19,916 nucleotides of DNA, taken from contig NZ_WJFC01000170.1 of assembly GCF_009725235.1 (NCBI RefSeq), positions 10,001 through 29,916 of the forward strand. Direction: 5' to 3'. This document shows positions 1 through 19,916 of this stretch, piece after piece. The stretch comes from Scytonema sp. UIC 10036. Its GTDB lineage: Bacteria; Cyanobacteriota; Cyanobacteriia; Cyanobacteriales; Nostocaceae. The first letter of the stretch is position 1. Each line of letters opens with the position of its first letter. The notes beneath the pieces are model-generated. The model made no database searches. It saw only the letters and a program-made list of their open reading frames with translations, and had not been told where the DNA came from. The position numbers were made by a program, and so were the translations under genes.

Positions 1-2128
<2,128 letters not shown>

Positions 2129-2137
2129 ACTATTTTT

Positions 2138-2228
2138 GCTCATTGCTAATGGCTAATAGCTCATTGCTAATCGTATGAAACAATTAGCCATTAGCCATTA
2201 GCCATTAGCTCTTAGCTATTAGCTCTTA
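2138..2228 (-). repeat. CATTAGC-type heptamer inverted repeat in the V3 region of the spacer
   Basis: The left part, 2138-2171, contains GCTAATGGCTAATAGC. The right part, 2183-2228, contains tandem TTAGCCA heptamers (three clean copies) followed by degenerate TTAGCTA and TTAGCTC units. The two parts are largely complementary across an 11-nt loop, so the transcript would fold into a long hairpin just upstream of the 23S 5' end. The heptamer differs from the ATTCATA family found in D1 and in the 23S insert. It fits the short tandem repeats typical of heterocystous cyanobacterial genomes. Confidence 0.8.
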
Positions 2229-2243
2229 TCGCGTTTCTATGCA

Positions 2244-2307
2244 GTTTTCAAGGTTCTGGCTGGATTTCTACCCAGCAGTCTTGTCCCAATTCTCTGACAA
2301 GTTGCTG
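2244..2307 (-). promoter_or_regulatory. Box-B-like hairpin and boxA antitermination site
   Basis: On the minus strand CAGCA-a-CTTGTC (in 2273-2307) is followed after a 10-nt loop by GACAAG-ac-TGCTG, giving a stem of 5 plus 6 base pairs, the usual box-B position in cyanobacterial spacers. Next comes GAACCTTGAAAAC (2244-2256), the cyanobacterial boxA-type antiterminator, then ACTGCATAG. Together they should recruit Nus factors and prevent premature termination in the 23S gene. Confidence 0.75.
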
Positions 2308-2356
2308 AATTTCTTCCTCAGATGATTCTTTTGGCTTGACTGCCTTACAATGATGA

Positions 2357-2382
2357 CGAACCAATCATAGTTTGAAAGCCAA
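2357..2382 (-). other. Pre-16S processing stem, 3' half (spacer D2/D3)
   Basis: The plus-strand sequence at 2367-2382 is the exact 16-nt reverse complement of 4091-4106 in the leader. CGAACCAA at 2357-2364 pairs with TTGGTTCG at 4116-4123. CCTCG at 2391-2395 can also pair with CGAGG at 4075-4079. In the primary transcript these halves would bring the two ends of the 16S precursor together as an RNase III-type processing stalk. The complementarity is seen directly. The processing role follows from rRNA operons in general. Confidence 0.75.
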
Positions 2383-2398
2383 TTTTCTTTCCTCGCAC

Positions 2399-2478
2399 GA
2401 CCTGGGATGTCTGAAAATTATGAATTGTGAATTGTAAATTTCATCATTCACCATTTCTCATTCATAATTCAGTTGGTC
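2399..2478 (-). repeat. D1 helix of the spacer carrying ATTCATA-type repeats
   Basis: The clamp of the D1 helix is GACC (minus strand, 2475-2478) pairing with GGTC (2399-2402). Between them AATTATGAAT and ATTCATAATT form a perfect 10-bp inner pair with degenerate heptamers beyond it. The heptamer is the same type as in the 23S insert at 899-966. Confidence 0.65.
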
Positions 2479-2484
2479 TCCCTA

Positions 2485-3973
<1,489 letters not shown>

Positions 3974-4840: not shown

Positions 4841-5258
4841 GGTGAACTCTAGTGTACCCGCATTAATAGTAATGTTGACCGCATTACCTGTTGAATTAGT
4901 TTTCACAACATTTCTAACCTAGCTGTTCTGGTTCACCTTTACAGTAGCTGTGGAATTTAAGATGACATCTTGTGAAGTTGAACTCACTGCACTCGATCTC
5001 ACTCTCATGCCCGCATAAATCGCTCTCTGCCCAAAAATATTGATATTCCGAGCATCAATTACTACATTTCCCCAATCCTTACTAATAATTTCAACTTTTG
5101 CTTGCTTGACAAGTGATACATCTAATTTCTGTATATTCTCTGAAAAACGTATATTCAAATTATTAGCACTATGCAAAAGCTCTGCTGTTCTCAAGGTGCT
5201 CATTCACCAAGTTTATTTGACCATCTAAAAGCTGGATACTAACAGCATTGAAGCTAAA
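4811..5258 (-). pseudogene. Fragment of a filamentous-haemagglutinin-like beta-helix protein
   Basis: The minus strand encodes beta-strand-repeat sequence of the kind found in large secreted cyanobacterial haemagglutinin-like proteins, such as GNVVIDARNINIFG followed by AIYAGM and DVILNSTATVKVN. An open segment runs from an ATG at 5203 to a TAG at 4919. Past that stop the same frame continues with equally typical sequence (NVVKTNSTGNAVNITINAG, then FTGALFYS) to a TAG at 4811. Upstream, a different frame reads NAVSIQLLDGQINLVNEH from about 5250. A nonsense codon and a frameshift are therefore both visible. There is no signal peptide, secretion domain or C-terminus, so this is a decaying internal fragment. 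Family assignment rests on style of sequence and is moderate. Confidence 0.6.
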
Positions 5259-5268
5259 GTGCAAGACT

Positions 5269-5284
5269 GTTTGCGATCGCAAAC
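5269..5284. repeat. Extended HIP1 palindrome
   Basis: GTTTGCGATCGCAAAC is a perfect 16-bp palindrome centred on the HIP1 octamer GCGATCGC. HIP1 cores recur through the window, for example at 8237, 8362 and 10684, as expected for many cyanobacterial genomes. Confidence 0.7.
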
Positions 5285-5460
5285 GAGCTTCCCTGAACTA
5301 ATACCTTTACAAGTGCCATGTAAGGGTAATGTCAAAGAAAATTGTGTAAAAATCAGACACTTTTGTGTAATGCAACCCCCTAACGGGTGAAATACCAGTT
5401 TTGAGTTTTAAATTTTTCCCCCTCAATGCTGAACTCCTGGTTATAAAAGATGACGCTGGC

Positions 5461-5490
5461 TTGATAAAAGATTACACTGTGGAATATGTT
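5461..5490 (+). promoter_or_regulatory. Candidate promoter of the adenylate cyclase gene
   Basis: TTGATA (5461-5466), an 18-nt spacer and TATGTT (5485-5490) are the best housekeeping-type hexamers in the 320 nt before the gene. They would give an untranslated leader of about 85 nt. The match is partial and unsupported by other evidence. The rest of the interval 5285-5582 contains no recognisable gene. Confidence 0.35.
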
Positions 5491-5582
5491 ATGTTCTGTT
5501 TGTTTGCTTGTAGCAACACTTACATACATTTAATGCCATTGATAAACATCGTTAAAATCAAATTCTATATCAAAAGTCAGTT

Positions 5583-8168
5583 ATGTCAGTTCATCAACGT
5601 GGTTGCGGTGCTACCGCCGATCTAATTATTGGTGTTCCAGATCGCGAAAGCCATGCCATGCAGCGTAATGCTACAGCAGTAGGTGCTCTCGCCAAACGCA
5701 AAGGAACAATCTCTACCTTTCTCGCGCCCTTAACTCAGGATACCTTTAAGCAAGTTGTTACCGAAGTTGAACAAAAACTACGGATCGTCAATCAAACCCT
5801 GTCCATGCTGGATTCTCAGGGATTTGAAACAATTTTGCAAGAAATGTTACACTCCATAACCCTAAAAACCGGGGAGTTATTGGGTGCCGATCGCACGACA
5901 ATTTTTTTACTTGATGAGGAAAAGCAAGAACTGTGGTCTATTGTGGCAGAGACAGAGGGCAATCGCTCCTTAGAAATTCGCATCCCAGCCGATAAAGGTA
6001 TCGCTGGTGAAGTTGCCACTTACAAAAAAGTGGTTAATATTCCTTTTGATTTTTACGACGATCCCCGTTCGTTATTTGCTCAGGAACAGGAAACAAGAAC
6101 AGGCTATCGCACCTACACAATGCTAGCTTTACCACTGGTGAATGAGGAAGGCGAACTTGTCGCAGTTGTACAATTGTTAAATAAATTAAGATCTCCCAAC
6201 AATCCAGATGCACCATTGTCAGAACGTATTGACCTAAAAGGTTTTACAGAAGCTGATAAACAATTATTTCAAGAATTTGCACCTTCTATAAGGCTGATAT
6301 TAGAATCCTCTCGTTCCTTTTACATAGCAACTCAAAAACAAAGAGCGGCAGCCGCCCTCATGAAGGCAGTAAAATCCCTCAGTCAAAGCAGCCTTGACTT
6401 GGAAGATACCCTCAAGCGGGTGATGGCTGAGGCAAAAGAACTTATGAACGCCGATCGCAGTACGTTATGGCTAGTAGACCGTGAAGCTGGACAATTGTGG
6501 ACAAAAATTACCCAGGATGACGGTTCTGCGAAAGAGTTACGAGTACCCATTGGCAAAGGTTTTGCGGGAATAGTTGCTGCAACTGGTAAAACGCTCAATA
6601 TTCCTTTTGACTTATATGACAATCCAGATTCCGAGACAGCCAAACAAATAGACCAACAAAATGGTTATCGTACCTGTAGCTTGCTTTGTATGCCTGTCTT
6701 TAATGCAGATGGAGATTTGATTGGCGTCACCCAGCTAGTGAATAAAAAGAAACCCGGAGATTTTCTCCCCTACAACCATGCTAATTGGCCGAACGCTCCT
6801 GAGTGCTTCCAAGCAAGCTTCGATCGCAATGACGAAGAATTTATGGAAGCGTTTAACATTCAAGCAGGAGTAGCGCTGCAAAATGCCCAATTATTTGCTA
6901 CAGTTAAACAGCAAGAGCAACTACAGCGAGATATCCTCCGCAGTCTTTCCAACGGAGTGATTTCCACTGATAAAGCCGGTCAAATTATTATTGCCAATGA
7001 AAGTGCGAAGCGTTTACTTGGTGTGAACCCAGAAGAACGCTTGGAAGGTAAACTCGTGAGCGAAGTTATCAATATTAAAGAAGGTGATTTTCGCAGGTGG
7101 TGTCAAGCAGCTTTAAACACAGCTGATTTAAAATACCGCGAACAGTACTATCCAGATCGAACGCTGCTGACTCCCAGTGAAGACCAGAACAGTATCAATT
7201 TGTCAATCAATACAATTGCCGATGCCAGCGACGCCAAACAAGTCAGGGGGGCGTTAGTGGTTATGGATGATATCAGTGATGAAAAGCGGCTCAAAAGTAC
7301 TATGTACCGCTATATGACTCAGGAATTAGCGGAAGAATTACTGAAATTAGATGATGCAAAATTGGGAGGCGATCGCAAAGAAGTTTCCATCTTATTTTCT
7401 GATATTCGAGGCTACACCACTCTGACAGAAAATCTAGAAGCAGAGGAAGTAGTCAGTATGCTGAACGAATACTTTGAATCAATGGTAGAGGCAGTTTTTC
7501 AGTACAAAGGCACGCTAGATAAATACATTGGTGATGCCATAATGGCTGTATACGGTTCTCCCTTGCCTTTACACGAACATGCTTGGATGGCAGTACAATC
7601 GTCAATAGAAATGCGCCATCGATTGAAAGAATTTAATGCCCGCCGTCGTTCCACAAACAAACCAACAATTAATATTGGGATTGGGATCAACTCTGATATC
7701 GTCATTAGCGGTAATATTGGTTCGAGCAAACGGATGGAATTTACAGCGATTGGTGATGGCGTCAATCTTGGCTCTCGATTGGAAAGTGTGAGCAAGCAGT
7801 ACGGATGCGATATTATTATCAGTGATAATACTTACGAACCTTGCAAAGAACAAGTATGGGCGCGAGAACTAGATTATATTCGCGTCAAAGGTAGAAATGA
7901 GCCAGTTGCTATCTACGAGCTCGTTGGTTTGCGTTCCGATTCAATTTGCAGTCATCAATTGCAAGCGATCGAACATTATCACCAAGGTCGTCGGTATTAT
8001 ATCAATCGTGACTTTGAGCGTGCCAGAAAAGAATTTGCTAAAGTTTTAAAGATTGACAGCAAAGACACTGCAGCAATGTTACACATACAGCGCTGTCAGC
8101 ACTGGTTACAAAATCCCCCATCCGATAAAAATTGGGATGATGGTGTGTGGACTTTTAAGGAAAAATAA
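5583..8168 (+). CDS. cyaB1: Adenylate cyclase, CyaB1-type (GAF-GAF-PAS-cyclase-TPR)
   Basis: This 861-residue class III adenylate cyclase makes cAMP from ATP. Order of domains: GAF-A (about 75-240), GAF-B (270-440), PAS (445-565), catalytic domain (590-775), and a TPR-like tail (790-845). GAF-B has the NKFDE signature (N387-K388, then F413-x3-D417-E418). GAF-A has NK and F-x3-D but K instead of the last E. The metal-binding aspartates are D607 (FSDIRGYT) and D651 (YIGDAIMAVYG). Purine-specifying residues are K647 and T721 (FTAIGD), and N728/R732 lie in NLGSRLE. Lys plus Thr is the pair known from Anabaena CyaB1, whose length is also near 860. The tandem GAF pair of that protein binds cAMP and activates the enzyme in a positive loop. 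No membrane segment is visible, so it should be cytosolic. The start has no strong Shine-Dalgarno; Met26 is an alternative. The symbol follows the Anabaena paralogue; CyaB2-type cannot be excluded. Confidence 0.93.
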   Translation: MSVHQRGCGATADLIIGVPDRESHAMQRNATAVGALAKRKGTISTFLAPLTQDTFKQVVTEVEQKLRIVNQTLSMLDSQGFETILQEMLHSITLKTGELLGADRTTIFLLDEEKQELWSIVAETEGNRSLEIRIPADKGIAGEVATYKKVVNIPFDFYDDPRSLFAQEQETRTGYRTYTMLALPLVNEEGELVAVVQLLNKLRSPNNPDAPLSERIDLKGFTEADKQLFQEFAPSIRLILESSRSFYIATQKQRAAAALMKAVKSLSQSSLDLEDTLKRVMAEAKELMNADRSTLWLVDREAGQLWTKITQDDGSAKELRVPIGKGFAGIVAATGKTLNIPFDLYDNPDSETAKQIDQQNGYRTCSLLCMPVFNADGDLIGVTQLVNKKKPGDFLPYNHANWPNAPECFQASFDRNDEEFMEAFNIQAGVALQNAQLFATVKQQEQLQRDILRSLSNGVISTDKAGQIIIANESAKRLLGVNPEERLEGKLVSEVINIKEGDFRRWCQAALNTADLKYREQYYPDRTLLTPSEDQNSINLSINTIADASDAKQVRGALVVMDDISDEKRLKSTMYRYMTQELAEELLKLDDAKLGGDRKEVSILFSDIRGYTTLTENLEAEEVVSMLNEYFESMVEAVFQYKGTLDKYIGDAIMAVYGSPLPLHEHAWMAVQSSIEMRHRLKEFNARRRSTNKPTINIGIGINSDIVISGNIGSSKRMEFTAIGDGVNLGSRLESVSKQYGCDIIISDNTYEPCKEQVWARELDYIRVKGRNEPVAIYELVGLRSDSICSHQLQAIEHYHQGRRYYINRDFERARKEFAKVLKIDSKDTAAMLHIQRCQHWLQNPPSDKNWDDGVWTFKEK

Positions 8169-8302
8169 AATTTATTTTGTTTATGGTGCAATCTACTCAG
8201 TTAATTTTGCGGTCATTCGTAGCATTTATTTATGAGCGATCGCAAAAAGTTTTACAAAAACTGTGTGTAAATCTTCGCGCTTGTTTGGTTCTACATTTTC
8301 AT

Positions 8303-8665
8303 TCATCCTTTATCACTTGGTGGACTAATCTCTGTGAGTTCTTGTGCATACCACTTGTGAGCGATCGCAGCAAGCCGATCTAGGACAACAATAAGGTCTT
8401 GGGCTTGTTCAGTTAAACCGTAAGTGACTTGAGGTGGGATAGTTGGCTCATAAGTTCGGTAGATAATTTCTGCCTCCTTAAGCATCCGCAGTCTTTCAGT
8501 CAGAACTTTTGAGGAAATACCTTCTATTTGACGTTTCAAAGCACCAAAGCGAGTTGGCCCATTATTACGTAAAATCCAAAGAATATAGAACGTCCAAGGT
8601 CCACTCAGTATGTTGAACAGAGTAGCTATCGGGCAAGTTACAGTTTCTTTAGATTGATTAGGCAT
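8303..8665 (-). CDS. HxlR-family winged-helix transcriptional regulator
   Basis: This 120-residue protein is a typical full-length HxlR regulator. Its N-terminus has TCPIATLFNILSGPWTFYIL, in which C11 sits at the position used for thiol or quinone sensing in YodB/HxlR-type proteins. The winged helix follows, with FGALKRQIEGISSKVLTERL as recognition region (about residues 40-60), then a wing and a dimerisation helix (about 80-110). Such proteins usually repress a nearby oxidoreductase or detoxification gene and themselves. Here the gene converges on the adenylate cyclase with a 134-bp gap. Its upstream side faces only a broken NHL gene, so the usual target is missing. Three TACT...AGTA inverted repeats lie 28-167 bp upstream of its start. 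Confidence 0.9.
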   Translation of the reverse strand: MPNQSKETVTCPIATLFNILSGPWTFYILWILRNNGPTRFGALKRQIEGISSKVLTERLRMLKEAEIIYRTYEPTIPPQVTYGLTEQAQDLIVVLDRLAAIAHKWYAQELTEISPPSDKG

Positions 8666-8692
8666 AAATAATTCAAAAATCCAGTAAACTTG

Positions 8693-8704
8693 TACTGATT
8701 AGTA
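8693..8704. promoter_or_regulatory. Candidate HxlR operator 1 (TACT-N4-AGTA)
   Basis: TACTGATTAGTA is an inverted repeat 28 bp upstream of the HxlR start codon. TACT/AGTA half-sites are typical of operators bound by YodB/HxlR-type regulators. The position suggests autoregulation. Confidence 0.5.
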
Positions 8705-8776
8705 TCCGAAACGGTATCTACATAAACGTTCTAGACAAAACAGCATTATAATTTAGTTTCTTTGGGGTGTCGCAGT

Positions 8777-8788
8777 TACTTGAAAGTA
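8777..8788. promoter_or_regulatory. Candidate HxlR operator 2 (TACT-N4-AGTA)
   Basis: TACTTGAAAGTA has the same half-sites and spacing as the first candidate operator, about 84 bp further upstream. Confidence 0.4.
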
Positions 8789-8809
8789 GCTACCTTACAT
8801 TCTAAAATA

Positions 8810-8832
8810 GTACTGATAATAACTATTAGTAC
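8810..8832. promoter_or_regulatory. Candidate HxlR operator 3 (long GTACTRATA palindrome)
   Basis: GTACTGATA and TATTAGTAC form 9-nt arms with one mismatch around 5 nt. The outer half-sites equal those of the two sites nearer the gene, but the arms are wider apart. It may be a stronger or dimer-of-dimers site, or the operator of a divergent gene since lost. Confidence 0.45.
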
Positions 8833-8882
8833 AAATTTATCTGCGTCCATCTGCGGTTAATTCAATATCTTGTACCTTACAA

Positions 8883-8902
8883 TTGTAGAGACGCTTCAAA
8901 CA
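8883..8902 (+). repeat. TTGTAGAGACG-type dispersed repeat at the broken end of the NHL gene
   Basis: TTGTAGAGACGCTTCAAAC matches 9532-9550 in 15 or 16 of 19 positions and shares its first 11 bases with the minus strand at 4005-4015. It supplies the stop codon of the truncated NHL protein. Confidence 0.55.
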
Positions 8903-9123
8903 AAGACTGAGACACGATTATTAGCAGAATCGCTGATAAAAATGTTCTTTGTTTCTTCTTGCACATCTATACCTTGAGGTAGAAAAAGATTTCCTCTTTC
9001 AATTCCAGGGCTACCAATACTACGCTCATAGGTTAATGTTGAAGACTTGGCTTGAGTTGCTGTTGCCAAGACCATTAACATTGCACTGACCACAGTCATT
9101 GACAACCTTTTTACCAATTCCAT
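8896..9123 (-). pseudogene. Truncated NHL-repeat secreted protein
   Basis: The start at 9123 has a good Shine-Dalgarno (AGGAG, 9 nt before the ATG). The first 25 residues form a signal peptide: KR near the start, a hydrophobic core and a cleavage site after ATATQA. Residues 36-75 read as the beginning of an NHL beta-propeller: GSPGIERGNLFLPQGIDV, then NIFISDSANNRVSVFV. NHL proteins normally have four to six such blades. Here the frame ends after one, at a TGA lying in a TTGTAGAGACG-type repeat. It is most likely a 5' gene remnant. A small secreted peptide cannot be excluded, since start, RBS and signal peptide remain intact. Confidence 0.65.
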
Positions 9124-9628
9124 AATGTAGGACTCCTGTTTGTGTGACTTTTCGCAATACGAATCTCGATCGCTCGTGCTTACAAACCCATAGCAAGACA
9201 GATCCTTCAGTCTGTGGCTGTGGAGTTTTACTGAATTTGAATATTTTCAGTAATGATGAATACTTTGATAACTACCCTCACCCAGAGGACGTTCGTCAAA
9301 GAGGTCAGGGAAGCATACCTGTTCGCGCAGCGTCTCCGATAGGAGAATTGCATCCTTAACCAGTGTATGCCTAGCGACTTCACGTTTGTGACTTGGTTTA
9401 GGTTTGTTAGGATTTGGAGTTGCAATGACTCAGTAGCGAAAAGTGAAGCAGTGTTAGTAGCTAAAATCTCCTGATTGACGTAAAATCTGGTAGACTTATC
9501 TAAACCCTGCATTACCCATCTTCGCAAAACATTGTAGAGACGTTTTAAACTGTCTTTACAAGGATTTTATGCAATTTAAATGAATTCTGCTCCGATTCGC
9601 GTCAACGTTAGAATCACAGGAATAAATT
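9124..9628. other. Intergenic region with dispersed repeats
   Basis: No convincing gene was found here. The region includes TTCGCGCAGCGTCTCC followed by TAGGAGA (9321-9345), which resembles a dispersed repeat common in Nostocales genomes, and a TTGTAGAGACG-type element at 9532-9550. Short open frames on both strands show no recognisable domain. A promoter for the downstream operon must lie here, but no clear hexamer pair was found. Confidence 0.45.
9532..9550 (+). repeat. TTGTAGAGACG-type dispersed repeat
   Basis: TTGTAGAGACGTTTTAAAC closely matches the element at 8883-8902. It lies about 80 bp ahead of the SDR gene. Confidence 0.5.
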
Positions 9629-10411
9629 ATGAAACTGGAAGGAAAGGTTGCGTTGGTTACAGGTAGCAGCCAGGGTATTGGACAGGCGATCGCAATTCGT
9701 CTGGCACAGGAAGGAGCAAGTATTGTTATCAACTACCGCTCGCATCCTGAAGGGGCAGAAGAAACCTTATCTAAGGTAAAGGCTGCAGGTGGTCAGTGCC
9801 AAATGGTTGATGGATTTACAATCCAGGCAGATACTGGAACAGTCAGCGACGTGCAACGCATGATTGCAGACAGCGTTTCTCACTTCGGCAAGCTGGATAT
9901 TTTGGTGAACAATGCAGGGATTGAAAAGAACGCTGATTTTTGGAATGTGACGGAAGCCGATTATGATGCCGTAATGAACGTAAATCTCAAAGGAGTTTTC
10001 TTTGCCACCCAAGCATTTGTAAAACATCGGCTCGAAATAAAGCAACCGGGCAAGATTATTAACATTAGTTCCGTACACGAAGAATTGCCCTTTCCTCACT
10101 TTACTGCTTACTGTGCCAGCAAAGGTGGATTGAAGATGCTGACTCGTAATTTGGCAGTTGAACTAGCTCCTTATGGTATTACCATCAATAATGTTGCTCC
10201 AGGGGCGATAGAAACTCCCATCAACACTAAACTCTTGAACGATCCAGAAAAGTTGGGAGTACTCCTCAAAAATATTCCCTTAGGACGATTGGGACAACCA
10301 AGAGATGTTGCCTCTATTGTGGCGTTTCTGGCTTCTGCTGAATCGGATTACGTAACAGGAACCACGTTCTTTGTTGATGGTGGATTGCTTTGGAATTATC
10401 AGGAGCAATAG
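9629..10411 (+). CDS. Short-chain dehydrogenase, glucose 1-dehydrogenase-like
   Basis: This 260-residue classical SDR should oxidise a sugar, probably beta-D-glucose to gluconolactone, with NAD(P)+. The cofactor motif TGSSQGIG is at 11-18, NNAG at 94-97, and the catalytic residues are S148, Y161 and K165 (YCASK). The segment [11 protein letters not shown] and the later PGAIETPIN closely resemble Bacillus glucose 1-dehydrogenase, which has almost the same length (261). The C-terminus carries the expected [10 protein letters not shown]. The ATG at 9629 is preceded by AGGAA at a good distance. It is the first gene of a same-strand set of four; the next start follows after 44 bp. Other SDR substrates cannot be excluded. 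Confidence 0.9.
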
Positions 10412-10455
10412 AGGCGAGAGCCTTTTGTAACTTTTATCGAAGGACAGTTCAACTC

Positions 10456-13131
10456 ATGACTCCAGAAGAAATAAGATTGCAGCAGGATCGAGAACGTGTC
10501 GCTTATTGGAAACGTTGGGGACCTTATCTTAGCGAACGGCAGTGGGGTACGGTGCGGGAAGATTACAGTCGCGATGGAACGGCTTGGGATTATTTTCCCC
10601 ACGAGCAAGCTCGATCGCGCATTTACCGTTGGGGTGAAGATGGCATTGCGGGAATTTCTGATAGCCGACAGCGTTTGTGTTTTGCGATCGCTCTTTGGAA
10701 TGGGAACGATCCAATTTTGAAAGAACGCTTGTTTGGACTGACGGGGACGGAAGGCAACCACGGCGAGGATGTAAAAGAGTATTATTTTTATCTCGACAAT
10801 ACTCCCACCCATTCCTACATGAAATGCTTGTATAAGTACCCCCAACAAGCATTTCCCTATTCGCAACTGGTGGAAGAAAATCGGCGCAGAAACAAATTTG
10901 AACAGGAGTTTGAGCTACTCGATACGGGTGTCTTTGAGGAGAACCGCTATTTTGATGTCTTCGTAGAGTATGCTAAAGCAGCACCAGAAGATATTTTGAT
11001 TCAGATTGCGATCGCGAATCGAAGCTCAAAAACCAGTACTCTTCATCTACTGCCAACACTTTGGTTTCGCAACCTCTGGGCTTGGAATCCCAATTTTGAG
11101 CAGCCCTTTATCAAAGTTGTTCAGTCAGACACCAATTTCAGTTTAATTGAAGCCGAGCATTCAACATTGGGAACTCGTTGGCTGTATTGCGAAGCAGGCG
11201 CAGAACTCCTCTTTACGAATAACGAAACCAATTACGAACGATTATTTGGTGTCACCAATAGTTCACCTTATGTTAAAGATGGCATTAACGAATATATAGT
11301 CAACGGGCAGACAGCCGCCGTTAATCCAAATCGCATAGGCACAAAGTTTTCCTCCCACTACACATTATCCATTGCTCCAGGTGAAACTAAAGTGGTGCGC
11401 TTGCGGTTGAGTGATGTGCAAACGCTGACAGATCCATTTGGCGCTGAATTTGACACAATTTTCAAGACTCGTATTGCTGAAGCTAACGAGTTTTACCAGC
11501 GCGTTAATCCTTTCCCCATATCAGAGGATGAGCGCAACATTCAACGACAGGCGTTTGCTGGATTGTTGTGGAGCAAGCAATACTATCACTACGTCGTCCA
11601 TGACTGGCTCAATGGCGATTCCAAACAACCATCACCTCCACCAGAACGGAAAGTAGGGCGCAACCACGAGTGGATTTCTTTGTTTAGCGAAGATATTCTC
11701 TCAATGCCAGATAAGTGGGAATATCCTTGGTTTGCGGCTTGGGATTTGGCGTTTCACCTGATTCCTTTAGCTGCCATAGATCCAGATTTTGCTAAGTTGC
11801 AACTGGATCGCTTGACACGGGAATGGTATATGCAACCTAACGGGCAATTACCTGCTTATGAATGGGCATTTAGTGATGTCAATCCACCCGTACAAGCATG
11901 GGCAGCCATGCGCGTTTATCAAATCGAGCAGAAGTTTTACGGACGAAGAGATCGCTCTTTTTTACAACGCGTTTTTCACAAGCTGTTGCTCAACTTTAAC
12001 TGGTGGGTAAACCGTAAAGATGTGGAAGGTAACAATGTCTTTCAAGGTGGGTTTTTAGGGCTGGACAATATCGGTGTCTTCGATCGCAGCAAGGAACTTC
12101 CCACGGGGGGCTACCTGAATCAGGCAGATGGTACAAGCTGGATGGGGATGTACTGTTTAAATATGCTAGCCATCGCTCTAGAGCTAGCGAAAGACGATCT
12201 GGTTTACGAAGACATTGCCAGCAAGTTCTTTGAGCATTTTCTCTACATTGCTGATGCTATTGATGGCATTGGCAATGCGGATATTTCCTTGTGGGATGAG
12301 GAAGACGGCTTCTACTACGATGTGCTGCGGTTGCCTGACAATCGGCAGTTTGCCTTGAAAGTACGATCTATGGTAGGATTAATACCCCTATTTGCCGTCG
12401 CGGTTTTACAATTAGAAACTTTACACCAGTTCCCTGGGTTCAAACGACGCATGGAATGGTTTATTCGGAACCGTCCCGATCTCAAACAGAATGTTGCGTG
12501 TATGGAAACACCGGGGGTGGGTGCGAGAAGGCTTTTGGCGATCGCCTATCGAAGCAAGCTGCAACGCATACTGCAACGGATGTTTGATGAGAATGAGTTC
12601 TTTGGCACATACGGGATTCGCGCATTGTCAAAGTATCATTTAGAGCATCCCTATACGTTGCGTCAAGGCGAGCACGATTACTGCGTCCGCTACGAACCTG
12701 CGGAATCCACCACAAGTCTATTTGGTGGTAATTCCAACTGGCGCGGTCCCATTTGGTTTCCAGTCAACTACTTAATTCTTGAAGCACTTTGGACATTTCA
12801 TGACTATTTTGGAGATAATTTTAAATTAGAATGTCCCACAGGTTCGGGGCAATATATGACTCTGCGGGAAGTGGCAATCGCACTATCCAAGCGCTTAATT
12901 GCTATCTTTCAACAGGATGCCACAGGTCGCCGTCCGGTATATGGAGGTCTTGAAAAGTTCCAATCCGATCCCCATTGGCGGAATTACATTTTGTTTCATG
13001 AATACTTCCATGGCGATAATGGAGCGGGAATTGGAGCCAGCCATCAAACAGGGTGGACGGGGTTGGTTGCTAGCATGATTCTCCAAATTTCCGAATACCG
13101 ATCGCAGGAGGAGGATGGTGGAAATCTTTAG
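10456..13131 (+). CDS. GH63/MGH1-like glycoside hydrolase (putative glucosidase)
   Basis: This large (891 residues) hydrolase should be cytosolic, as no signal peptide is visible. The C-terminal half has the signature of (alpha/alpha)6-barrel hydrolases of the GH63/mannosylglycerate-hydrolase type. [13 protein letters not shown] segment contains the probable acid D430. [12 protein letters not shown] starts near 762, and [20 protein letters not shown] contains the probable base E849. The N-terminal 400 residues form the usual beta-sandwich. Family members cleave glucose from oligosaccharides or from compatible solutes such as glucosylglycerate; the substrate here is not known. The frame is open from 10390, but that start lies inside the SDR gene and gives an atypical 22-residue extension. 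The ATG at 10456 has GAAGGA 11 nt upstream and begins the conserved [20 protein letters not shown]. It overlaps the aquaporin gene by 17 bp. Confidence 0.88.
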
Positions 13132-13948
13132 GAAGCATTTACCGGAATACTTAATGGAAGCAGCAGAACTGGGAATATTTATGATTTCTGCTGGAGTGTT
13201 TACCTGCATATTTGAGTATCCCGGTTCTCCCATTCATCAGGCAATTTCCAATGGAGATCTCCGGCGATTTTTTATCGGTATAGCTATGGGGTTGACAGCA
13301 GTTGCTCTCATTTATTCTCCATGGGGCAAGCAATCCGGCGCACACATGAATCCGGCTGTCACGCTTACCTTTTATCGCTTGGGGAAAATTAAACGACAGG
13401 ATGCTGTTTTCTACATTCTGTTTCAATGTCTGGGTGGATTGGTTGGTGTATGCTTGGTGGCATTATTGCTGGGGAAAGTGTTCACGCAACCACCTGTGAG
13501 CTATGTTGTTACAGTGCCAGGAACACTGGGTTGGGTTGCGGCTTTGTTGGGTGAACTAGTCATTGCATTTCTCATGATGATGACTGTTTTGCTGACTAGT
13601 AACAATCAAAAACTCAATCGCTTCACAGGGTTATTTGCTGGATTTTTGGTGATGCTTTATGTCTTTTTTGAAGCTCCCCTATCTGGCTTTGGCATGAACC
13701 CCGCTCGCACCTTTGCCTCTGCCTTTCCATCTCAAATTTGGACGGCATTTTGGTTGTATGTTATTGCGCCACCAGTTGGGATGTTGCTGGCATCAACATC
13801 ATATCAATATCTATTTGGACAGCGAGCAGTTAAGTGCGCCAAATTGCATCACGAAAACCACAAACGCTGTATTTTTCGCTGTGGTTACAACCGTAATGGC
13901 AACATTGATTTGAGCGATCGCCTTCCCATTTCAGGAAAAAATTCATGA
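13115..13948 (+). CDS. Aquaporin / MIP-family channel with a Cys/His-rich C-terminal tail
   Basis: This 277-residue membrane channel has both NPA motifs: [10 protein letters not shown] with NPA at 79-81, and [11 protein letters not shown] with NPA at 195-197 followed by the conserved R198. About six hydrophobic segments are seen between residues 15 and 235. It should pass water or small polyols across a membrane; selectivity cannot be read with confidence. The start has a strong AGGAGG three bases upstream and lies inside the end of the glycoside hydrolase gene, indicating translational coupling. Residues 240-258 form an unusual tail with C241, H245, H246, H249, C252 and C256, absent from classical AqpZ. 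The stop overlaps the GMC start by ATGA. Confidence 0.92.
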
Positions 13949-15510
13949 CAACAAACACCCATTATGATGTCATCATCATCGGTACCGGGGCTGGTGGTGG
14001 CACTTTAGCTTATCATCTTGCGCCCAGTGGTAAGAAGATTTTAATTTTGGAAAGAGGTTCGTTTTTGCCGAGGGAAAAGGAAAACTGGAGTGCGCTGGAA
14101 GTATACCAACGAGAGCGATACCATACCCAAGAGCAGTGGTATGACGTGAATAACAAACCCTTCCGTCCTGCAATGAATTACTGGGTTGGTGGTAACACAA
14201 AAGTTTATGGTGCAGCTTTATTGCGATTGCGGGAACGCGATTTTGAGCGGGTAGAACACAAGGACGGTATCTCACCAGAATGGCCGTTGAAATATCATGA
14301 CTTTGAACCGTATTATACTCAGGCAGAGCAGCTTTACGATGTTCGGGGTCAAGCAGGTGTAGATCCTACAGAGCCTTTTAGAACTTCACCTTACCCTTAT
14401 GCTCCAGTACATCACGAACCTCGAATGCAAGAACTGGTGGATTGTCTACAAGGGGCTGGGTTGCATCCGTTTCATTTGCCGTTGGGATTGAAGCTGAATG
14501 AAGTTGATAAAACTCTGGGAAACTGTATTCGTTGCAATACTTGTGATGGCTTTCCTTGTCTGACTCGTGGCAAAGCTGATGCTGATGTGAATTGCGTTCA
14601 GCCCATTCGCCATCATGCAAACATCACTTTACTGACGGAAGCTAGAGTTACTCGATTGCATACGAGTCCTTCTGGTCAAGAAGTTACGCAAGTAGAAGCC
14701 CAAATTAGTGGGGAGCCTCAATTTTTTACAGGCGATATTATTGTGGTTTCTTGCGGTGCTATTAACTCGGCTGCATTGTTATTGCGATCGCACAACGACA
14801 AACATCCCAATGGATTGGCAAATAGTTCCGACCAAGTAGGTCGCAACTTGATGAAGCACGTCTGTATGGCAATGGTACAATTAAATTTAAAAATTAATCC
14901 ATCTGTTTATCAAAAAACAATTGCCATTAGCGATTTTTACTGGGGCGAACCTGACTTTCCCTACCCCATGGGATTGATACAAAATACTGGCAACGTACTA
15001 GCAGATATGTTACCTGCCGAAGTTCCCGCACTGCTAGCTCCATTATTAAAAATGCGACCGGGAGCAGAACTGAAAACTGTTGCCGATCGCACTGTAGGAT
15101 GGTGGTTGCAAACGGAAGATTTACCCGATTCCGAGAATCGCGTGCGGGTGGAGGGCGATCGTCTTTACTTAAACTACAAACCTAATAACCTGGAAGCAGG
15201 CGATCGGTTAGCTAAACGTTGGGTGGGAATTCTTAAGAAGGGCGATCGAGCGGAACATTTAGTTCCTTTCAGTCTTTATCCTCGTAACATGATGCCACTA
15301 CAGTCAGTTGGGCATCAAAATGGGACTTGTCGATTTGGGGAAGATCCAACAACTTCCGTACTGGATATCAATTGTCGTACTCATGACGTTGATAATCTCT
15401 ATGTTGTTGATGGCAGTTTCTTTCCATCTAGTTCTGGTGTTAATCCTACGCTGACTATTATTGCCAATTCATTAAGAGTAGGGGATCTCTTGTTACAACG
15501 ATTGAAGTAA
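13945..15510 (+). CDS. GMC-family FAD-dependent oxidoreductase with a Cys cluster
   Basis: This 521-residue glucose-methanol-choline oxidoreductase has the FAD-binding GTGAGGG at 13-19 followed by the ILERG strand end. Catalytic residues are probably H457 (SVGHQNG) and N500 (SGVNPTLT). The C-terminal VVDGSFFPSSSGVNPTLT is the usual GMC signature. It should oxidise an alcohol group of a sugar or polyol. Residues 194-217 carry C194-x2-C197-x2-C200-x4-C205-x11-C217, in the region where Cys-rich FAD glucose dehydrogenases hold a 3Fe-4S cluster. The enzyme might therefore pass electrons to a carrier instead of O2. There is no Tat or Sec signal. Its ATG overlaps the aquaporin TGA by 4 bp. Confidence 0.92.
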   Translation: MTTNTHYDVIIIGTGAGGGTLAYHLAPSGKKILILERGSFLPREKENWSALEVYQRERYHTQEQWYDVNNKPFRPAMNYWVGGNTKVYGAALLRLRERDFERVEHKDGISPEWPLKYHDFEPYYTQAEQLYDVRGQAGVDPTEPFRTSPYPYAPVHHEPRMQELVDCLQGAGLHPFHLPLGLKLNEVDKTLGNCIRCNTCDGFPCLTRGKADADVNCVQPIRHHANITLLTEARVTRLHTSPSGQEVTQVEAQISGEPQFFTGDIIVVSCGAINSAALLLRSHNDKHPNGLANSSDQVGRNLMKHVCMAMVQLNLKINPSVYQKTIAISDFYWGEPDFPYPMGLIQNTGNVLADMLPAEVPALLAPLLKMRPGAELKTVADRTVGWWLQTEDLPDSENRVRVEGDRLYLNYKPNNLEAGDRLAKRWVGILKKGDRAEHLVPFSLYPRNMMPLQSVGHQNGTCRFGEDPTTSVLDINCRTHDVDNLYVVDGSFFPSSSGVNPTLTIIANSLRVGDLLLQRLK

Positions 15511-15786: not shown

Positions 15787-16779
15787 ATGGCTCAGTACAA
15801 ACACGATCGCTTCTTCAAGTTTTATATCCAATCTTTATATAAAACTAAAGGAAAGACTCTACAAAATATCCCAGTCCACAATGATGAGGACCTCGAAATC
15901 GATTTGATGTTTATGGTCGAGGGAGAAAATTCCGGGTGGCTTTCTGAGAATTTAGGTTTATTCGACCAGTTAATGCAAGAACATCCAACAGTGATTATCG
16001 AACATTACAGTTCGTATTTAGAAGAAATGGATATTAATAAATCGATGACTCGCAAAAATCTGTATTGGGATAGAAAGCAGAAAGAACTGGTGGAGAACAC
16101 CAAAGCCAAAACGGAATTAACAAGTTCTCAACCAAGTAAGAAAGAAGCAAAACAACAAATGGAAAATCAAAATCCATTTACGTGGATTCTCACGGTGAAT
16201 TGCAGTGAAAAACTCTTGAATTTGTGTGGCGCTCAAAGAGCAACTGAATTCGGTGTAGGTGTATATCGACTCCCTCGAATTTTTCGGTTGGGAATTGTGA
16301 TTATCACCCAATTGGTTGATAGTCCAGAAACGATGTGGCTAAAAATGTTGGGAGATAAACATTCTGCGACTAGCGCTTTTGAATCAATCAAGCAGCTATC
16401 GCCGGAGCGCAGGGAAAAAAATGATATAATAAGTGCATGTATAAAATACTGTGTTTACTTACGAGAGATACCTACTGATAGTTTAACTCCGGAGGATGAA
16501 GATTTTATGAAAACGATGGCACAAATCGATGCTTGGTATGAGGCTGAAATTAACAAGGCTAAGTTAGAAGGTGAATTTCTAGGTAAGCTAAAAGGTAAGA
16601 TTGAGTCGGCAAGTACTATAATTCGAGCTAAGTTTGGGGCTGAGGTTCTCACGCCACAGATACTCAGTCAACTTGAACAGTTAAGCGATCAACAACTTGA
16701 TAATTTTATAGTACTCATGTTTAATTGGCAACAACCCCTTGAGATGGAGTCATGGCTCTCTGGGAGCGAAAAAGTTTGA
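15787..16779 (+). CDS. Rpn-like (PD-(D/E)XK/DUF4351) protein, full-length copy
   Basis: This 330-residue protein resembles the cyanobacterial branch of recombination-promoting nucleases (Rpn). The N-terminus opens with YKHDRFFKFYIQSL. DEDLEIDLMF (D39) and TVIIEHYSSYL (E72) are spaced like the metal-binding D and E-x-Q of Rpn (VLIEHQS), though the second position is H/Y. A middle domain contains FTWILTVNCSEKLLNLCG and ETMWLKMLG (about 130-190). The C-terminus is DUF4351-like: KLEG-EFLG-KLKG tetrads at 259-270, then ASTIIRAKFGAEVL and LSDQQLDNF. Full-length Rpn proteins are DNA endonucleases with toxic and anti-phage activity. It is preceded by a gene scar and followed by amplified copies of its own 3' part. 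No clear Shine-Dalgarno precedes the start. Catalytic competence is uncertain. Confidence 0.75.
   Translation: MAQYKHDRFFKFYIQSLYKTKGKTLQNIPVHNDEDLEIDLMFMVEGENSGWLSENLGLFDQLMQEHPTVIIEHYSSYLEEMDINKSMTRKNLYWDRKQKELVENTKAKTELTSSQPSKKEAKQQMENQNPFTWILTVNCSEKLLNLCGAQRATEFGVGVYRLPRIFRLGIVIITQLVDSPETMWLKMLGDKHSATSAFESIKQLSPERREKNDIISACIKYCVYLREIPTDSLTPEDEDFMKTMAQIDAWYEAEINKAKLEGEFLGKLKGKIESASTIIRAKFGAEVLTPQILSQLEQLSDQQLDNFIVLMFNWQQPLEMESWLSGSEKV
16422..16430 (+). promoter_or_regulatory. Candidate intragenic extended -10 promoter
   Basis: TGaTATAAT is a perfect extended -10 element inside the Rpn-like coding frame, 76 nt ahead of the internal ATG at 16507. No good -35 is present, as is usual for extended -10 promoters. 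The same element is at 19665-19673 in unit 3. In unit 2 one inserted A changes it to TATAAA. Confidence 0.4.
16491..16509 (+). promoter_or_regulatory. Internal Shine-Dalgarno and start codon in the Rpn-like gene
   Basis: GGAGG (16491-16495) lies 11 nt before an in-frame ATG (16507). It is a stronger site than that of the full gene. All three copies keep it unchanged (18089-18107 and 19734-19752). Confidence 0.55.
16507..16779 (+). CDS. Predicted internal gene product: C-terminal domain (RpnS-like)
   Basis: Translation from the internal ATG would give a 90-residue protein identical to residues 241-330 of the full-length protein: MKTMAQIDAWYEAEINKAK, the tetrads KLEG, EFLG and KLKG, and the DUF4351 end. 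In E. coli, small Rpn C-terminal domains (RpnS) are translated separately from the full-length nuclease (RpnL) and block it, forming a gene-within-gene toxin/antitoxin pair. Their dimer helix carries four-residue repeats of variable number. The internal GGAGG and extended -10 make the same arrangement plausible here. The site is seen in the sequence; separate expression and inhibition are inferred. Confidence 0.5.
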   Translation: MKTMAQIDAWYEAEINKAKLEGEFLGKLKGKIESASTIIRAKFGAEVLTPQILSQLEQLSDQQLDNFIVLMFNWQQPLEMESWLSGSEKV

Positions 16780-17670: not shown

Positions 17671-18104
17671 TTGTACAAAGTTACCTTATACAAACCTTAA
17701 TAAGACACAGCTTTAAGTTTTACTTTATTCTAGTTGTCAGAATTTCGTAACAATAGTAAATATCGTCTACCCTTTTTGATACCCTAGGAACTGCAATACA
17801 AGTGAAAAACTCTTGAATTTGTGTGGCGCTCAAAGAGCAACTGAATTCGGTGTAGGTGTATATCGACTCCCTCGAATTTTTCGGTTGGGAATTGTGATTA
17901 TCACCCAATTGGTTGATAGTCCAGAAACGATGTGGCTAAAAATGTTGGGAGATAAACATTCTGCGACTAGCGCTTTTGAATCAATCAAGCAGCTATCGCC
18001 GGAGCGCAGGGAAAAAAATGATATAAATAAGTGTATGTATAAAATACTGTGTTTACTTACGAGAGATACCTGCTGATAGTTTAACTCCGGAGGATGAAGA
18101 TTTT

Positions 18105-18425
18105 ATGAAAACGATGGCACAAATCGAAGCTTGGTATGAAGCTGAAATTAACAAAGCTAGGTTAGAAGGCAAACTAGAAGGCAAACTAGAAGGCAAACTA
18201 GAAGGCAAACTAGAAGGTGAATTTTTAGGTAAGCTAAAAGGTAAGATTGAGTCGGCAAGTACTATAATTCGAGCTAAGTTTGGGGCTGAGGTTCTCACGC
18301 CACAGATACTCAGTCAACTTGAACAGTTAAGCGATCAACAACTTGATAATTTTATAGTACTCATGTTTAATTGGCAACAACCCCTTGAGATGGAGTCATG
18401 GCTCTCTGGGAGCGAAAAAGTTTGA
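18105..18425 (+). CDS. Stand-alone RpnS-like C-terminal domain with KLEG repeats (unit 2)
   Basis: This intact 106-residue frame has its own GGAGG (18089-18093) 11 nt before the ATG. It starts MKTMAQIEAWYEAEINKA, continues with RLEG, four KLEG, EFLG and KLKG, and ends with the same DUF4351-like tail as the full gene (STIIRAKFGAEVL, LSDQQLDNF, WLSGSEKV). The repeats should lengthen a charged helix. Its extended -10 is altered by the inserted A, so its transcription may come from elsewhere. By analogy with RpnS antitoxins of E. coli it could inhibit a full-length Rpn-like nuclease, perhaps one with a matching repeat number. That function is inferred. Confidence 0.55.
   Translation: MKTMAQIEAWYEAEINKARLEGKLEGKLEGKLEGKLEGEFLGKLKGKIESASTIIRAKFGAEVLTPQILSQLEQLSDQQLDNFIVLMFNWQQPLEMESWLSGSEKV
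18171..18218 (+). repeat. 12-bp minisatellite, four units (KLEG)
   Basis: AAACTAGAAGGC is repeated at 18171-18182, 18183-18194, 18195-18206 and 18207-18218 (last base T). A degenerate unit precedes it at 18159-18170. Each unit encodes K-L-E-G in frame. Unit 1 and unit 3 of the amplification lack the expansion. Confidence 0.95.
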
Positions 18426-19446: not shown

Positions 19447-19916
19447 AGTGAAAAACTCTTGAATTTGTGTGGCGCTCAAAGAGCAACTGAATTCGGTGTA
19501 GGTGTATATCGACTCCCTCGAATTTTTCGGTTGGGAATTGTGATTATCACCCAATTGGTTGATAGTCCAGAAACGATGTGGCTAAAAATGTTGGGAGATA
19601 AACATTCTGCGACTAGCGCTTTTGAATCAATCAAGCAGCTATCGCCGGAGCGCAGGGAAAAAAATGATATAATAAGTGCATGTATAAAATACTGTGTTTA
19701 CTTACGAGAGATACCTACTGATAGTTTAACTCCGGAGGATGAAGATTTTATGAAAACGATGGCACAAATCGATGCTTGGTATGAGGCTGAAATTAACAAG
19801 GCTAAGTTAGAAGGTGAATTTCTAGGTAAGCTAAAAGGTAAGATTGAGTCGGCAAGTACTATAATTCGAGCTAAGTTTGGGGCTGAGGTTCTCACGCCAC
19901 AGATACTCAGTCAACT
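19447..19916 (+). pseudogene. Rpn-like gene, 5'-truncated copy (unit 3, cut by window end)
   Basis: This is the start of a third tandem unit. It appears identical to 16204-16673 of unit 1, without the inserted A or the 48-bp expansion of unit 2, so its frame is open to the window end. It has no initiation site for the long form. The extended -10 (19665-19673) and GGAGG (19734-19738) of the internal gene are intact. Confidence 0.8.
19750..19916 (+). CDS. RpnS-like C-terminal domain (unit 3, partial)
   Basis: An in-frame ATG 11 nt after GGAGG opens MKTMAQIDAWYEAEINKAK, the KLEG-EFLG-KLKG tetrads and the start of the DUF4351-like tail before the window ends. The sequence equals that of the internal product in unit 1. 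Separate expression is inferred. Confidence 0.45.
   Translation, partial: MKTMAQIDAWYEAEINKAKLEGEFLGKLKGKIESASTIIRAKFGAEVLTPQILSQ

Follow-up and report, generated by a model that had tools for sequence, protein, structure and literature searches.

A divergent Rpn-like gene of the cyanobacterium Scytonema sp. UIC 10036 with a conserved internal start that may encode its own antitoxin

The closest described relatives of the gene considered here are the RpnL/RpnS systems, for which we draw on the main text of PMC10327210. In Escherichia coli, the tail of the Rpn nuclease is also translated separately as RpnS, which has its own transcription start, dimerises via a repeat helix and blocks the nuclease, and the number of repeats sets RpnS specificity. 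Rpn arrays and separate tail genes are also known. The main text of PMC10327210 contains no word beginning ‘cyanobacter’, though it cites Cas11d of Synechocystis, and our own search, which covered only part of the literature, found no paper on the protein family described below. Here we analyse a 19,916 nucleotide (nt) stretch of Scytonema sp. UIC 10036 DNA (contig NZ_WJFC01000170.1, positions 10,001 to 29,916; hereafter ‘the window’) carrying a gene for an Rpn-like protein of 330 amino acids (aa), whose homologues we term the window family. Its C-terminal tail very probably has a translation start of its own, inside the larger gene.

The initial annotation of this DNA had noted an extended -10 element, TGATATAAT, followed by a GGAGG located 11 nt ahead of an in-frame ATG, all within the long frame. 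Direct reading bears this out: the TG lies at 16422-16423 and the TATAAT at 16425-16430, whilst the gap between GGAGG and ATG occupies 16496-16506 and the ATG (16507-16509) shares the frame of the full-length open reading frame (ORF). It had also proposed that translation from this ATG would yield the tail alone with the tetrads KLEG, EFLG and KLKG, and a 90-codon ORF containing all three is indeed present (Table 1). The internal start of E. coli rpnA reads AAGGAG, then 6 nt, then ATG.

Comparison with homologous genes shows that the internal -10, Shine–Dalgarno (SD) sequence and ATG are kept beyond coding need. Thirty genes were collected, from which one fragment (L021_m2748) was dropped before alignment to give 29 codon-aligned genes; L082 lacks codon 241, leaving 28. 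Codons were then exchanged among synonymous places within each gene in 5000 shuffles. GAGG is found at -16 to -5 of the internal ATG in 28/28 genes (shuffle mean 13.2, maximum 22) and TATAAT at -90 to -60 in 24 of the 28 (mean 4.6, maximum 13). In the four genes without TATAAT, threonine replaces Ile214 and the sequence is GATACAAT. Isoleucine at codon 214 is encoded by ATA in 25/25 cases, ATA making up 191 of the 727 isoleucine codons in these genes, and the internal methionine is unchanged in 108/108 aligned homologues of the family. The result survives thinning to 20, 11 and 7 genes: in the smallest set, with all genes less than 75% identical, GAGG is seen in 7/7 (P 0.0025), TATAAT in 6/7 and GATAYAAT in 7/7, equalled by 0/2000 shuffles. 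In a scan along the gene, the SD excess is highest at codons 240-241 and the TATAAT excess at codons 213-214, with smaller peaks elsewhere. By column permutation, the 10-codon window with the strongest synonymous constraint in the gene (E238-A249, P 0.0012) spans the internal start, and the corresponding 8-codon window is F240-A249 (P 0.0016); among shorter windows, neither the top 3-codon (P 0.24) nor the top 5-codon one (P 0.06) reaches significance. Taken together, these results make it very likely that the start at 16507 is used, and strongly indicate separate translation of the tail.

Table 1 Features of the Rpn-like gene and its repeat copies (window coordinates)
Feature	Position	Strand	Evidence
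Full-length ORF, RpnL-like, 330 aa	15787..16779	+	365 homologous proteins at E <= 1e-3
N-terminal nuclease-like domain, residues 1-220	15787..16446	+	AlphaFold2 (AF2), VIA-align, column counts, E. coli Rpn alignment
Internal extended -10, TGATATAAT	16422..16430	+	TATAAT in 24/28 homologous genes
Internal Shine–Dalgarno GGAGG	16491..16495	+	GAGG in 28/28 homologous genes
Internal ORF (tail alone), 90 aa, RpnS-like, DUF4351-type	16507..16779	+	Invariant Met, AF2
Three tetrads KLEG, EFLG, KLKG, within long helix of tail	16561..16596	+	Direct reading
Copy 2 of 3' half, no N-terminal domain, frame broken by 1-nt insertion at 18025	17801..18425	+	
GGAGG of copy 2	18089..18093	+	Direct reading
Tail-only ORF of copy 2, 106 aa, own internal ATG at 18105	18105..18425	+	
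Copy 3, cut by window end, internal ATG 19750	19447..19916	+	Identical to copy 1 over 470 nt

Several observations weigh against this interpretation. The expectation that GGAGG-N11-ATG would be kept by homologues beyond what the codons require holds for the GAGG core and fails for the exact arrangement, which is not present in every homologue: 15/28 genes have any of four 5-base SD words (shuffle mean 4.8), and GAGG is shifted one codon later in 6/28. SD words are also in excess ahead of codon 194 (20 genes, 9.6 expected), and a second conserved TATAAT lies near codon 278, inside the tail region (16/28 genes, 2.9 expected). At seven other conserved internal methionines, SD words were found in 0/28 genes at each, a weak control given that shuffles expect only 0-2.8 there. 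For the -10, the 8-codon constraint window is not significant alone (P 0.21), and a pattern scan listed no -35/-10 pair at this element.

A second family of cyanobacterial DUF4351 proteins, which we call A4-type, offers a separate view of the internal start. A4-type proteins are present in 47 of 60 sampled genomes and are only ~26% identical to the window family, but hhalign matches the two over their full length (probability 99.8). They differ in having E-P-F/Y where the window family has E-H-Y. Thirty-seven A4-type loci were offered, of which 35 distinct genes were usable. The methionine matching that of the window family is invariant in all 35 and is again preceded by an SD: a 5-base SD word is found in 26/35 genes (shuffle mean 4.2, maximum 11), arginine at codon -4 is encoded by AGG in 19/28 cases versus 69/727 elsewhere, and a 10-codon constraint peak lies at -2 to +8 around the methionine (P 0.0004). 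TATAAT, however, is found ahead of the A4-type start in 0/35 genes (shuffle mean 8.8), a further point against the reading given above, and the idea that an internal promoter is general was accordingly not upheld. The SD and start, but not the -10, are thus common to both families. One genome (G563, C1:7677429-7687123) carries a tandem array of seven A4-type genes.

How closely does the window protein resemble the Rpn proteins? The N-terminal domain looks PD-(D/E)XK-like on modelling, with motifs HDxxFK (residues 6-11), D39, E72-H73-Y74-S75 and R89, of which HDxxFK, D and EHxS are shared with E. coli Rpn in alignment. D39 is present in 105/105 and E72 in 107/107 non-gap homologues. Position 74 is tyrosine in 97 and phenylalanine in 10, so the Rpn catalytic D...E-x-Q (D63, E82 and Q84 in RpnA) is absent. 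The Rpn family models TIGR01784, PF12784 and PF04754 do not match the window protein in Pfam or NCBIfam; nothing in NCBIfam rises above a cut-off, and PADLOC gives no match. Rpn-like identity, as first proposed, is therefore partly supported, by a domain that looks nuclease-like and by the shared motifs, and falls short in that no Rpn model matches the N-terminal half and Y/F replaces Q; by these measures the gene is not a strict member of the Rpn family.

The tail is more readily placed. TIGR01784 gives matches in 59/108 homologues, under the model's cut-off in those inspected, and in 4/6 homologues checked the matches fall entirely within the tail. DUF4351 scores 17.2 bits in the window protein, under the Pfam cut-off of 25, and is found at E 1.7e-25 in a relative joined by full-length hhalign. 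The window family thus has an Rpn-type tail (DUF4351 or TIGR01784 tail). Some homologues possess a different tail, resembling that of TIGR01784, and one N-terminal domain is therefore paired with two tail types. The AF2 model of the tail (predicted local distance difference test score, pLDDT, 85) comprises a helix at 4-43 plus three short helices; RpnAS (7th0) was absent from its structure-search matches. Among the 120 matching proteins listed, those that bear an organism name are all cyanobacterial. Homologues of the window protein occur in 15 of 217 genomes of the family of Calothrix sp. PCC 7716 (E <= 1e-20) and in five of 388 genomes drawn across the class.

In common with RpnA-E of E. coli and Rpn of C. 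difficile (PMC10327210), the window gene joins a nuclease-like domain to a variable tail at which an internal SD and ATG are located, with four-residue repeats 8-20 residues past the internal methionine. Tandem arrays and separate tail genes occur in both, and DUF4351 is named for some of the tails in PMC10327210. On comparative evidence, a translation start precedes the tail here too, and the tail varies by four-residue repeats. Beyond the N-terminal half, a further difference is the internal -10, conserved in one of the two cyanobacterial families tested. The proposal that an Rpn-like protein shares the RpnS architecture thus fares well for the internal unit and less well for strict family membership. 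Judged in this way, those RpnL/RpnS features that leave a trace in sequence are present in the window gene, except the canonical nuclease signature.

Variation in the tail follows a regular pattern. Tail lengths differ by multiples of four residues in 33/33 tails counted, these being the 33 of 45 distinct tails that held the search motif; of the other 12, five with a near variant of that motif fit the four-residue step when counted by hand, and the rest are of another tail type or truncated. A search by a motif at the internal methionine, which would miss any copy interrupted within the tail, gave 13 distinct copies that have no working N-terminal half. Twelve of these retain an open tail of 78 aa or more, that of L060 being 26 aa, and 10 retain GAGG ahead of the ATG. 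Counted from the internal ATG, homology by BLAST begins at -5 (L060), -8 (L044), -22 (L025; about -9 by eye), -74 (L061), -75 (L003), -85 (L056), -110 (L122), -116 (L015), -121 (L071), -304 (copy 2 of the window) and -423 (L014), whilst L013 and L054 are almost full length with stops within the N-terminal half. In L025, the upstream gene ends in a stop 7 nt ahead of the ATG; in L003, a native leader and first codons run directly into position -75. The L003 locus (5001-7797) is an array of two full-length genes followed by this tail-only gene with its native leader. Ten of the 13 were compared pairwise with a near intact gene for the ratio of nonsynonymous to synonymous divergence (dN/dS), each value resting on few changes: 0.11 for L003 and L044, 0.27 for L122, 0.30 for L014 and L056, and for L025 0.30 against its neighbour and 0.42 against its nearest gene. 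L013 shows four synonymous changes and no other, L061 no change, and values reach 0.6 when second-nearest genes are used. Among 32 tail-length database proteins, 14 start at M241 and four at M244, which are gene-caller choices.

Could the small protein be something other than an antitoxin? The internal start might be real and the tail a working subunit that completes an oligomer. There is a cyanobacterial precedent in Cas11d of Synechocystis (cited in PMC10327210), likewise a C-terminal product from an internal start, inside cas10d, where the small product helps the large one, and conservation of a start is silent on the sign of the tail's effect. Against this, tail-only copies persist both beside and apart from full-length genes, and the variation in repeat number agrees with the specificity rule shown for RpnS (PMC10327210); we regard a subunit role as unlikely.

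The window itself holds, beyond what was initially annotated, two further copies of the 3' half of the gene (Table 1). Copy 2, whose start corresponds to codon 140, differs from copy 1 over 1597 nt by seven substitutions and by 1-nt and 48-nt insertions, and by nothing else; position by position there are three synonymous and two other changes, too few to use for dN/dS. The 48 extra nt (18163-18210) add four tetrads, giving seven rather than three, and if the RpnS repeat rule holds the copy 2 tail would not fit the copy 1 protein. All differences fall in a single patch, 16427-16579 versus 18025-18225, spanning the internal -10, SD and tetrads, a pattern suggestive of gene conversion or of a chimera in the assembly.

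This patch bears on another explanation, that the conserved stretch is a hot spot for recombination or gene conversion. Homogenisation would then account both for the clustering of break points and for the low synonymous divergence, and the tail-only copies would be debris. The confinement of differences between copies 1 and 2 to 16427-16579 fits such a view, as do the clustering of some break points near -8 and -75 and the two broken tails (L060 and L055). The conserved part is, however, specifically SD-like, with an uncommon AGG codon in the A4-type family, and some tail-only copies show low dN/dS, as in L003 and L044 above, making a hot spot quite improbable. Least probable of all is the absence of any internal product, with SD-like glutamate codons and a methionine kept for protein reasons and codon bias: glutamate codons do resemble SDs, shuffles alone yield GAGG in 13/28 genes and SDs only partly predict starts in cyanobacteria, but codon bias as the cause is disfavoured by the codon-controlled shuffles in two families and by thinning.

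On balance, then, the window gene is probably an Rpn-like toxin with an intragenic antitoxin, working like E. coli RpnL/RpnS. Translation of the full ORF would give a PD-(D/E)XK-like nuclease whose helical tail is built of four-residue repeats, and initiation at 16507, using the internal GGAGG, would give the tail alone; this start is probably also fed by a short mRNA that begins near 16437 and depends on the -10 at 16425. The free tail would pair, via the repeat helix, with its counterpart in the full-length protein, keeping the nuclease off until freed by infection or stress, with repeat number determining which tail matches which nuclease. The sequence comparisons establish the sites, their retention beyond coding need, the four-residue step in tail length and the repeated occurrence of tail-only copies; separate translation, nuclease activity, toxicity, neutralisation and a role in defence are inferred.

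As for its surroundings, the window may be a contig bounded by repeats, because it starts within an incomplete 23S rRNA gene that has 16S next to it (1-3973), and ends inside a repeat copy (19447-19916). Among 14 genomes searched for its 16S, eight gave a match, the best being Calothrix sp. PCC 7716 at 92% identity. Neighbouring genes at 5583-15510, named by eye from translations, would encode a GAF/PAS cyclase, an HxlR-type regulator, a short-chain dehydrogenase, a glucosidase-like protein, an aquaporin-like protein and a GMC oxidoreductase.

If the antitoxin interpretation is correct, intragenic antitoxins would reach a divergent nuclease-like domain missed by current models, with an example from a phylum for which our partial literature search found no tested case. 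That the internal start is detectable from synonymous constraint alone suggests how further cases might be sought, and the three- and seven-tetrad tails at one locus are natural material on how repeat number sets specificity. More broadly, and here we see the case as evenly balanced, the large cyanobacterial superfamily unseen by Rpn models (the window family plus the A4 type) may be a reservoir of gene-within-gene toxin–antitoxin systems, in which the internal start would be older than the split between the families and new specificities would arise via changes in repeat number, exchange of tails and the release of antitoxin genes consisting of the tail alone, like that in the window.
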